A DNA stretch of 45,657 bases, from NCBI GenBank assembly GCA_020062745.1, contig JAGUVT010000056.1, positions 1 through 45,657 of the forward strand. The letters run 5' to 3'. The translations under genes and the position numbers were made by a program. Of this stretch, positions 27,183 through 33,582 are shown in pieces (the first letter of the stretch is position 1; every line of letters begins with the position of its first letter). The notes beneath the pieces are model-generated. The model did no database searches. It had not been told where the DNA came from and saw nothing but the letters and a program-made list of their open reading frames with translations. The stretch is from Deltaproteobacteria bacterium (GTDB lineage: Bacteria > Bacillota > Desulfotomaculia > Desulfotomaculales > JAGUVT01).

Positions 27183-30144
<2,962 letters not shown>

Positions 30145-30160
30145 GCAGATAAAACAGCCC

Positions 30161-30535
30161 TCAGAGGCAACTGCCTTCCTTGCGCACCTGGTTCATCCTT
30201 GTTTCCAGGCAGGGGCAGATGTTTTCGGGCACGTTGTCGAAACGGCAGGGGCAGTAAAAATCGCCGTACTGTTCTTTTTTTTGCATCAAACCTTCCATTA
30301 CCAGGTCCTTGTTTTCGTTGAACACGTACCCTTTCAGCCGGGCGTACGTATTTACCCGTTCGGTTATTTCCCCGGCCGGTTCCTGGGGGAACTTGCGCGC
30401 CAGGACTTCATCGCCGATTTCCATGACCTCCAGTTTGGCCCCGCACACCGGGCAGATCAGGATCGATCCTTCTTCCAAAGGTTCTCTGGCGACAAATGAG
30501 ACCAGGCACACCGGACAAAATACTTTATTTTTCAT
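30161..30535 (-). CDS. Zinc-ribbon plus ferredoxin:thioredoxin-reductase-like catalytic domain
   Basis: A 124-aa protein. Residues 7-31 form a zinc ribbon (CPVC ... CPVCG). The C-terminal part has CPC at 95-97, CPC at 107-109 and a single Cys123 in the last GSCL. This matches the CPC...CPC...C-x-C layout of the FTR catalytic subunit, where four Cys bind a [4Fe-4S] cluster and two form the redox disulfide. The last Cys of the usual CHC motif is missing because the protein ends first. Start ATG 30535, nine bases after GGAGG, overlapping the glutaredoxin gene by 11 bases. Probably the electron-transfer partner of that glutaredoxin; activity is uncertain given the missing Cys. Confidence 0.7.
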   Translation of the reverse strand: MKNKVFCPVCLVSFVAREPLEEGSILICPVCGAKLEVMEIGDEVLARKFPQEPAGEITERVNTYARLKGYVFNENKDLVMEGLMQKKEQYGDFYCPCRFDNVPENICPCLETRMNQVRKEGSCL

Positions 30536-30776
30536 TTTGGAGTGCCTCCATGACTTCATCGGTCTTATAGCCCTGGATTACCCTGCCGTTTGCCACCGTG
30601 ATGGGAAAAGACCGTTTGCCCGCCAGCCTGTCCACTTCCGCCAGGACCTGTTCCTGTTCCGCTCCTTTCAGCAGGTCCACGTCGACAAAGTCATAAGGAA
30701 TTTCTTTTTCGGTCAGCCATTGCTTCATTTTTTTACACCAGGGGCAGGTGCTTAAAGCATAGAGTTTAACCTGCAA
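30525..30776 (-). CDS. Glutaredoxin/NrdH-like thiol redox protein
   Basis: An 83-aa thioredoxin-fold protein. The active site is CPWC at residues 11-14 (LSTCPWCKKM); DFVDVDL and the cis-Pro strand RSFPITV follow, then GYKTDEVMEAL. TTG start, with AGAGGTG nine bases upstream. Overlaps the FTR-like gene, so the two form an operon; together they suggest a ferredoxin-driven disulfide reduction path. Could be called glutaredoxin or NrdH-redoxin; no ribonucleotide reductase gene is in view. Confidence 0.88.
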   Translation of the reverse strand: MQVKLYALSTCPWCKKMKQWLTEKEIPYDFVDVDLLKGAEQEQVLAEVDRLAGKRSFPITVANGRVIQGYKTDEVMEALQNEK

Positions 30777-32061: not shown

Positions 32062-32088
32062 TAAAATTTATTAAAGCAGGTGTGCCTG

Positions 32089-32632
32089 TTGTGGAATAAA
32101 GACGAAGAAGTGAAGTTTTTTGCCGAATCCCTTAATATTGCTGCGCCGGAGAAACTTTTTTACGTAACAGACGGCGGCAGATATATTGCTTACTGGCCTA
32201 AGGAATATAAAGGTAAAAAGGATACTCTGCAGAGCAGAAATGCTTTTATCGGTAGTTATACTGAGAAGTGGGTAAAAGAAATTTTAAGTCCGGTTGCAGA
32301 AAAAATTAATGCATTTCCAGTTTTAAAGGTTAAATGTCCGGATATAGGACTTACATCCGATTCGCCTGCAGACTTAGCTATTTGCAGAACCAGCGAAAAA
32401 TACCAAAGGTCGGAAGATATTTTGCTTATTATAGAAGTGAAAATGTCTGTTGTCTGGAATTGGGAATACGCCAATTACTGCAAGTTATCGTGACAAGGTA
32501 GATCACTTGAAAGAAACCGGTATGAAAACAAAAATGGAACTGGGCAAAATTATCGAAATAGCTAACAAGGAAGCAACTTATAAGGCAAAGGCGGAAAAAT
32601 TCTTGCAAATTCTGAAAGGGGGAGAAAGTTGA
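32089..32632 (+). pseudogene. Broken type II restriction endonuclease
   Basis: The first frame (to 32493) reads WNKDEEVKFFAESLN ... PADLAI ... ILLIIEVKMSVVW, with the D...ExK layout of a PD-(D/E)XK nuclease. It then runs out of frame. From about 32450 another frame continues with GNTPITASYRDKVDHLKETG and ends overlapping the methyltransferase start (TTGA). The two halves read as one protein joined by a frameshift, probably with loss of a central segment, since the join falls directly after the catalytic strand. Nuclease activity is therefore unlikely. Identity as the methyltransferase's partner is inferred from position and motif. Confidence 0.65.
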
Positions 32633-33582
32633 AAAAGTACGGAACTCAGACCAGTTCCTTCGGCACGCCCGGAAGAGTAAACCACGATTCTACTTCTTTT
32701 TACAACAGCATGCTCTACAAAGGTCTGCCCGCAGAAAAAAGAGTCTCTTATGTGGAAAAACCCATTCCGAATGAGTTTTTAGATAAAATCTTTTGCAAAA
32801 CCAGCGAAAACATGGAGGAGCTTCCCGATAACAGCGTGCACCTGATGGTAACTTCACCGCCTTATAATGTTGGAAAGGATTATGACGAGGACTTGACCCT
32901 CGATCAATACAGGGAATTTTTGAAAAAGGTGTGGAAAGAAGTCTACAGGGTGCTTGTTCCCGGCGGACGAGCCTGCATAAACATAGCGAACCTGGGCAGG
33001 AAGCCGTATATCCCGATTCATGCCTTTATCGTTGAGGACATGCAGGGCATGGGGTTTTTAATGCGCGGCGAAATCATCTGGAACAAAGCTTCCAGCGCGA
33101 GCCCTTCCACAGCCTGGGGGAGCTGGCTTTCGGCAGCTAATCCTACTTTGAGGGATATTCACGAATATATCCTTATTTTTTCTAAGGATTTATTTACCAG
33201 AAAAAACCCTGCTTGCAGAAAAAATACCATAACCAAGGAACAATTTTTGGAATACACGAAAAGCATCTGGACGTTCCCGGCGGAGCAGGCCAAAAAGGTC
33301 GGCCACCCGGCGCCATTTCCGGTAGAACTCCCTTACCGGTTAATCCAGCTTTACACCTTTGAGGGAGAGGTTGTTCTGGATCCTTTCACGGGCAGCGGGC
33401 AGGCTGCCATAGCAGCCTTGAAAGCAAAAAGGCGGTATGTTGGGTATGAAATAGATGAAAATTATGTGGAACTGGCAAACAGGCGGGTGTGCAGCTTTAA
33501 AGAAATGTTTTCCCAACTGCGGCTTTTTGAGGGACCGGGAGCTTACGAAGCGATGGAAGATTGTCTGGTTAACACTGAGTGA
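32629..33582 (+). CDS. Type II DNA methyltransferase (amino-group methylating, beta class)
   Basis: A 317-aa enzyme. Catalytic motif IV TSPPYN comes first (near residue 80), and the AdoMet-binding motif DPFTGSGQAAIAAL is near the C-terminus, the beta-class order. The N-terminal segment SFGTPGRVNHDSTSFYN is shared by a group of type II methyltransferases. It methylates the amino nitrogen of cytosine or adenine in its target site; which base and site cannot be told. All motifs look intact. Starts with TTG overlapping the broken nuclease gene. A terminator follows at 33596. Confidence 0.9.
   Translation: MKKYGTQTSSFGTPGRVNHDSTSFYNSMLYKGLPAEKRVSYVEKPIPNEFLDKIFCKTSENMEELPDNSVHLMVTSPPYNVGKDYDEDLTLDQYREFLKKVWKEVYRVLVPGGRACINIANLGRKPYIPIHAFIVEDMQGMGFLMRGEIIWNKASSASPSTAWGSWLSAANPTLRDIHEYILIFSKDLFTRKNPACRKNTITKEQFLEYTKSIWTFPAEQAKKVGHPAPFPVELPYRLIQLYTFEGEVVLDPFTGSGQAAIAALKAKRRYVGYEIDENYVELANRRVCSFKEMFSQLRLFEGPGAYEAMEDCLVNTE

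Follow-up and report, generated by a model that had tools for sequence, protein, structure and literature searches.

Two overlapping genes on the minus strand of the DNA stretch analysed here (45,657 nucleotides, the window) very probably encode a ferredoxin:glutaredoxin reductase module. In this putative assignment an FTR-like protein with a zinc ribbon would act together with a glutaredoxin (Grx) by means of a [4Fe-4S] cluster and the redox pair Cys97-Sec125. The analysis revealed a UGA at a Cys position of the FTR motif, a covarying hairpin downstream of it, the selenocysteine (Sec) machinery in the same genome, an FTR fold in the predicted structure, a zinc ribbon pattern and a pairing with a Grx gene.

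The gene pair and the domains of the FTR-like protein

The first gene of the pair (30525..30776, minus strand) encodes a glutaredoxin-like protein of 83 amino acids with an STCPWC active site containing Cys11 and Cys14; its TTG start is preceded on the minus strand by AAAGAGGTGA. The second gene, encoding the FTR-like selenoprotein (30137..30535, minus strand), extends from an ATG (30533-30535) to a TAA (30137-30139) and would yield 132 residues with Sec at position 125. The genes overlap by 11 nt (30525-30535) and thus represent two ORFs. A sequence-only reading of this DNA had described an ORF at 30161-30559 (minus strand) with CPC, CPC, one further Cys and a zinc ribbon at its N-terminus, in overlap with a CPWC glutaredoxin. 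This content was confirmed by the ORF list and by Pfam, the ribbon having the motif CPVC...CPVC. The ORF is present, but its proposed start at 30559 is wrong: comparison with relatives placed it 24 nt too early and favoured the ATG given above. A promoter scan returned two sites only, both on the plus strand. Elsewhere in the window (32080-33582, plus strand), inspection of the ORF list by eye showed a DNA methyltransferase-like ORF (32629-33582) after short ORFs (32080-32632), which may be its broken restriction partner.

Pfam assigned residues 1-50 of the FTR-like protein (30386..30535, minus strand) to the LysW-like zinc ribbon PF21344 (32.9 bits, cut-off 27), with Cys7, Cys10, Cys28 and Cys31, and also detected PF02943 FeThRed_B (46.3 bits, cut-off 22). 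The FTR catalytic domain comprises residues 52-132 (30140..30382, minus strand) and contains C95-P-C97, C107-P-C109 and C123-L-U125. The protein therefore belongs to the FTR/FDR family (PF02943) by its score above the cut-off, by the FTR fold of its predicted model and by the order C-x-C, C-x-C, C-x-C, in which the UGA was counted as the sixth residue. The best of five AlphaFold models had a pLDDT of 94.9 and a pTM of 0.88 (36 sequences, U given as Cys; pLDDT of the others 82.8 to 92.5). In this model, the FTR domain matched 1dj7_A with a VIA Z of 10.5 (76 residues, rmsd 1.6) and the ribbon matched LysW 5eio_C with a VIA Z of 7.4 (46 residues, rmsd 1.3), the best unrelated row reaching Z 4.0. 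From the FTR structures, we take Cys95, Cys107, Cys109 and Cys123 to be the cluster ligands and Cys97 and residue 125 to be the redox pair. A PF02943 search of the genome found no second FTR-type gene.

The ribbon cysteines and all six motif positions were invariant in the 36 aligned sequences, which were drawn from the 75 genes described below. The zinc ribbon that had been noticed at the N-terminus was borne out in these genes, as the CxxC...CxxC pattern occurred in 73/75 and was absent from L058 and L090. In L058/L025 (Pelotomaculum propionicicum) the first ribbon CPVC is missing and the FTR part follows short GGTACC-type repeats, an arrangement that looks like an insertion or rearrangement. 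L090 (a Peptococcaceae MAG) is a Cys form in which the frame ahead of the FTR domain shows no ribbon pattern, whether by loss or by a frameshift, and its Grx gene is still present. Pfam, NCBIfam and the PDB gave no role for the ribbon. It may dock ferredoxin or Grx, or may act as a shield of the cluster, a role that the available part of PMC9025218 suggests for the phototrophs' variable subunit.

The in-frame UGA as a putative selenocysteine codon

Under the standard code the FTR-like ORF ends ...KEGSCL at the UGA (30161..30163, minus strand), and the same frame runs on through GLFYLPE to the TAA. This UGA occupies the last Cys position of the FTR CxC motif; it aligns with the last Cys of C-x-C in relatives and in solved FTR chains, and the match goes on beyond it. 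The sequence-only reading had taken the UGA for a stop and had accordingly let the protein end before its last Cys. Gene finders that stop at UGA truncate the FTR-like protein in the same way and give it the look of a one-cysteine protein.

Codon 125 was compared in 75 genes, the window's own and 74 motif-holding loci (L029-L102), and was TGA in 40, TGC in 23 and TGT in 12 (35 Cys genes in total). The loci came from a scan of 84,980 species genomes that used two short patterns and reaches only close relatives; 75 loci were found, 74 of them with the motif, and L103, in which the full motif is missing, was excluded from every count. One of the 74 loci, L029 (Desulfotomaculum copahuensis strain LMa1), is 80-81% identical. 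L018-L025 mostly duplicate named loci and were not added; three more genes, L024, L115 (Cys) and L116 (TGA), likewise do not belong to the 75. A search of the 113 genomes in the window's order (the class-level search covered the same ones) gave matches in 11. The match spanned most of the protein in nine, counting the window's own; one TGA is read through in seven of these, and the remaining two have Cys. Of 398 genomes drawn from the phylum, 22 gave a match; three had the TGA (the window's own, G542 and G384), and the other long matches, for example L115 (Cys), were stop-free.

In 36/40 Sec genes the tail after the TGA is 7 residues long, and most tails follow the pattern GLFYLxE or NLFHLKE. 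Pairwise differences in the first five codons beyond the TGA numbered 1206/673/1870 at codon positions 1/2/3, an excess at the third position that was absent from codons +13 to +17 (2869/2909/2927), all these figures being sums over pairs and not independent events. These comparisons indicate that the frame past the TGA is conserved as protein. An in-frame UGA at the Cys position of homologues, followed by coding conservation, is what would be expected of a bacterial selenoprotein gene.

A SECIS-like hairpin (30126..30144, minus strand) with an 8-bp stem and a GGU loop starting 25 nt past the UGA spans both convergent stops, the TAA of the FTR-like gene and, on the opposite strand, the TAA of ligA. 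All 40 TGA genes possess a hairpin with a stem of 6-10 bp and a loop of 3-4 nt carrying G in position 1 or 2. The loop is GUU in 25 genes and otherwise GGU, GUC, AGUU, GGUU, GGUC, GGA, GCUU or GGGU, and starts at +25 nt relative to the UGA in 31 genes and at +24 nt in 9. The available part of PMC13188914 gives a bacterial SECIS model with a loop of 3-9 nt having G in the first two positions, a stem of 4-16 bp and a distance of 16-37 nt between UGA and loop, and 40/40 TGA genes agree with it. A stem of at least 6 bp near the expected place was found in 40/40 Sec genes, in 3/35 Cys genes (L073, L074 and L076, all with 12-bp stems) and in 359/8000 shuffles; under a looser test (stem of at least 5 bp, G in the loop) 3/35 Cys genes passed (L074, L085 and L094).

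In an ungapped alignment, some rows of which are out of register, each of the 7 stem pairs was changed on both sides and 82.5% of cells paired. Double-change cells numbered 29 versus 12.1 in shuffles (0/500 shuffles as high), and shifting the stem partners by 1 to 3 columns reduced all measures of pairing and covariation. The hairpin region of the window taken alone did not fold unusually well (z -1.07; 27/200 shuffles as good). Rfam reported no SECIS on the window, and region 30080-30240 gave only IS009 on the other strand (E 0.51).

The window's genome (2.69 Mb, 99.65% complete) contains a tRNA-SeC (ARAGORN call; Rfam 70.8 bits, cut-off 47), SelB (381 bits, cut-off 242), SelA (585 bits, cut-off 268) and a formate dehydrogenase alpha subunit (FdhA, 866 bits, cut-off 666) with one in-frame TGA. 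The Rfam model of tRNA-Sec matched in 14/14 named control genomes (5 over cut-off), and because of this lack of specificity the ARAGORN call carries the weight; a second over-cut-off Rfam match in the window's genome (L002) was not called by ARAGORN. Among the same controls, SelB was over cut-off in 2/14 and SelA in 1/14.

SelA was over cut-off in 34/39 TGA genomes versus 6/35 Cys genomes (p about 1e-9, nominal and ignoring kinship). The Sec synthase of archaea differs from SelA according to the available part of PMC13188914, so that SelA cannot fairly be used to judge the 14 archaeal genes; in the fairer set of 21 non-archaeal Cys genomes it was over cut-off in 6/21 (p 8e-6, likewise nominal and ignoring kinship). 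Sec and Cys genes cluster on the tree, and these p-values therefore overstate independence. The TGA genomes without SelA over cut-off are L041, L049, L063, L064 (none) and L077 (a fragment near the contig start), which may reflect gaps of draft genomes. L077, a MAG labelled Desulfovibrio, is a TGA form labelled outside Bacillota; it sits on a long branch, has the SelA fragment only and may stem from misbinning of the contig or from a transfer.

A tree of 76 rows (the 75 genes and L024) required at least four Sec/Cys changes, at least two of them forced by well-supported branches, and Sec has thus been lost or gained more than once. One half of this tree, itself weakly supported, contains the 40 Sec rows with five Cys rows among them. 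The middle residue of the CxU/CxC motif was His in 0/40 Sec genes and 23/35 Cys genes. In the weakly supported Sec-rich half, His occurred in only 1/5 Cys rows; the residue tracks clade as much as Sec and was given little weight.

A sequencing error as the source of the UGA, which the sequence-only reading had considered in the form of a 3' error restoring CxC, is very unlikely, as TGA occupies the same codon in 39 other genomes, including the complete one of Candidatus Formimonas warabiya (L046). A general reassignment of TGA is ruled out: the frame is ended by a second TGA 8 codons on in 24/40 Sec genes, and by TGA after a longer tail in one more. Since the second TGA ends the frame in these 24 genes, the recoding is position-specific. 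The alternation of TGA and Cys at codon 125, the conserved covarying SECIS-like hairpin and the Sec machinery of the genome argue strongly that the UGA codes for selenocysteine at residue 125, a putative incorporation that we regard as nearly certain.

Three other explanations of the UGA and its hairpin were weighed against this reading. Convergent genes meet at the hairpin, and long downstream hairpins occur in some Cys relatives (e.g., L043, L072 and L073), as would be expected if the structure only ended transcription and the UGA were read through by another route. This is extremely unlikely: the terminator scan listed the hairpin at 30126-30144 on neither strand, and the termination at the second TGA speaks against general readthrough. 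Moreover, loop position, loop letters and stem track the UGA and not the downstream gene, which differs among the 24 loci with neighbours listed, so that the hairpin belongs with the FTR-like gene, and a plain transcription terminator was rejected. The mechanism proposed from the sequence alone amounts to a true stop at the UGA and, as its product, a one-cysteine cluster enzyme joined to Grx in a mixed disulfide. The ORF does end at this codon under the standard code, and a Sec UGA usually causes some termination; yet the protein-like conservation past the UGA, Cys at this codon in 35/75 genes, the covarying hairpin in every UGA gene and the Sec machinery leave a true stop with hardly any probability. 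With these features Cys and Sec make up a complete redox pair, and a one-cysteine enzyme with a different mechanism finds no support. Grx should still form a mixed disulfide, as an ordinary intermediate of the FTR cycle and not as a separate mechanism. Recoding is rarely complete, and a truncated product would retain the four proposed cluster cysteines and Cys97. It is therefore conceivable, although improbable, that the Sec enzyme is made with selenium and a one-cysteine form with a separate role without it; no conserved feature hinting at use of the short form was found, and the all-Cys relatives (35/75) are unable to make it.

The glutaredoxin partner and related systems

The 30525-30776 product matched PF00462 Glutaredoxin in Pfam (49.2 bits, cut-off 22.9), whereas its NCBIfam YruB-type match stayed below cut-off. 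Among solved structures it resembled 3nzn_A (3e-16) and the Grx half of 7pwe_A (1.6e-7), and also 5cax and 3ic4. A Grx gene lies immediately upstream of the FTR-like gene in 71/74 loci from several bacterial and archaeal phyla. Together with the solved Grx/FTR-like fusion 7pwe, this upholds the coupling to a glutaredoxin that had been proposed from the sequence. The exceptions are L045 and L099, at contig ends, and L058, which has no Grx in the 0.7 kb up to the contig end. At the 71 loci the Grx motif was CPWC (38), CPFC (15), CPYC (14), CPHC (1) or began with TGA (1), and in two cases the match started past the motif. By eye, Grx was the sole neighbour recurring across phyla in the 24 loci with neighbours listed. 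A search for glutamate-cysteine ligase of the PF04262 type found none in the window's genome; Grx therefore probably works without glutathione.

The ferredoxin:glutaredoxin function is suggested by the FeThRed_B match, the solved FTR chains, the predicted fold, the adjacency of the Grx gene and the 7pwe fusion, so that the roles of ferredoxin and Grx would follow from homology and gene order. The Sec reductase could instead act on another disulfide or a low-molecular-weight thiol, with Grx as a donor or merely co-expressed. The likeness of Grx to other small glutaredoxins (3nzn, 5cax, 3ic4 and, below cut-off, the YruB type) would fit such a role, as would the position of the pair after a serA-like gene in 4/24 listed loci (by eye). 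We consider another partner or electron source unlikely, as Grx alone recurs as a neighbour across phyla and both proteins form one chain in 7pwe. In the four loci concerned (L048, L053, L057 and L059), the end of the serA-like gene lies 16-28 nt upstream of the expected start of Grx, a hint of a connection with serine synthesis.

One MAG (L031:4760-5008, plus strand; also L104) carries a Grx gene in which an in-frame TGA takes the place of the first CPWC cysteine. A hairpin CAAGC-AGTT-GCTTG with its loop G 24 nt past the TGA was recognised by eye and was absent from the minimum-free-energy fold. Judged from these sequences, both proteins of the L031 pair may be selenoproteins. In the family of L031 (23 genomes), 11 genomes had Grx matches; one TGA was present in that of L031 itself, in that of L108 (49% identical) and in five weaker matches, which may be other known kinds of Sec-Grx. 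L108:1501-1740 (minus strand) encodes a UPWC glutaredoxin with no FTR-like gene adjoining; by eye, the upstream ORF is desulfoferrodoxin-like and the downstream one 2-oxoacid:ferredoxin oxidoreductase-like.

Selenocysteine-containing FTR is a kind of protein already known. The available part of PMC2398784 reports two Sec-FTR sequences from ocean metagenomes (GOS 2008), one of them with two Sec. An FTR with the motif CxU is tabulated in the accessible portions of PMC13188914 and PMC9312934, and the former, a 2026 review, gives NF041072 with two Sec. These sequences and NF041072 FtrB_double_U resemble the window protein in being FTR catalytic subunits with Sec at the redox CxC position, as far as the sources are available. 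However, NF041072 describes a double-Sec protein, whereas the window protein has one in-frame TGA and Cys at residue 97, and its match covered residues 59-128 only, with a score of 28.6 bits where the cut-off is 160. NF041072 matched 33/36 aligned sequences at E 0.001 or better, and no NCBIfam model fitted the FTR-like protein over cut-off.

The Grx/ferredoxin disulfide reductase fusion of Desulfotalea psychrophila (7pwe) combines Grx and FTR-like domains and matched both window proteins. For the FTR-like protein it ranked first by sequence and by Foldseek E-value and took ninth place by VIA Z (Z 9.4 over 80 residues, rmsd 2.5). In contrast to the two overlapping genes of the window, 7pwe is one chain; its residue aligned to Sec125 is Cys, and its matched parts (6-82 and 90-170) leave no space between them for a zinc ribbon. 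No literature on the Desulfotalea glutaredoxin/disulfide reductase was found in our search. The ferredoxin-dependent disulfide reductase of Methanosarcina acetivorans (4tpu, named rubredoxin in the deposit) shares the FTR catalytic domain (VIA Z 8.6, 79 residues, rmsd 2.9) but has a C-terminal extension and Cys at the aligned position, and only two residues precede the match, so that it has no N-terminal ribbon. The plant and cyanobacterial FTR (1dj7, 2pu9, 7bzk) has the same fold and, in the 7bzk alignment, the same C-P-C, C-P-C, C-x-C pattern. It ends CHC and, according to the available part of PMC9025218, has a variable subunit (FTRV, described there as exclusive to oxygenic photosynthetic organisms) and works with thioredoxin, whereas the window protein has CLU, the ribbon and a Grx neighbour. 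A single-Sec, ribbon-bearing, Grx-paired FTR clade was not found among the literature matches listed, subscription journals lying outside the search, and the available part of PMC5890173 describes no such Sec protein; within this scope the clade is new.

Proposed mechanism and significance

In the proposed cycle, Sec125 would be inserted at the UGA by SelB and the hairpin just downstream. Reduced ferredoxin would then pass one electron to a [4Fe-4S] cluster held by Cys95, Cys107, Cys109 and Cys123, the Cys97-Sec125 selenosulfide would open, and the selenolate would settle at a cluster iron. Cys97 would attack the CPWC disulfide of Grx to form a Cys97-Grx mixed disulfide, and a second electron would free the reduced Grx, which could in turn reduce protein disulfides. 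The iron-ligating sulfur of FTR is presumably that of the C-terminal residue, here the position of Sec. According to the available part of PMC3838966, thioredoxin is attacked by one of the two active-site sulfurs of FTR, and the second serves as the fifth ligand on a cluster iron.

More tentatively, and with some doubt on our part, the Sec selenolate could be an extra ligand of the cluster iron in the one-electron intermediate, the enzyme could be the terminal reductase of a thiol system running from ferredoxin to Grx in anaerobes lacking glutathione, and in at least one lineage (L031) the two proteins could form a Se-to-Se relay. If the Sec reading is right, the family would provide a natural exchange of sulfur for selenium at the residue expected to touch the Fe-S cluster, with the all-Cys relatives as controls, and 77Se would offer a spectroscopic handle on the way in which two-electron disulfide cleavage is driven by a one-electron cluster. 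The pair would serve as a ferredoxin-driven thiol-reducing module of an anaerobe, and the analysis names a probable ferredoxin-linked reductase for the glutaredoxins of anaerobes.
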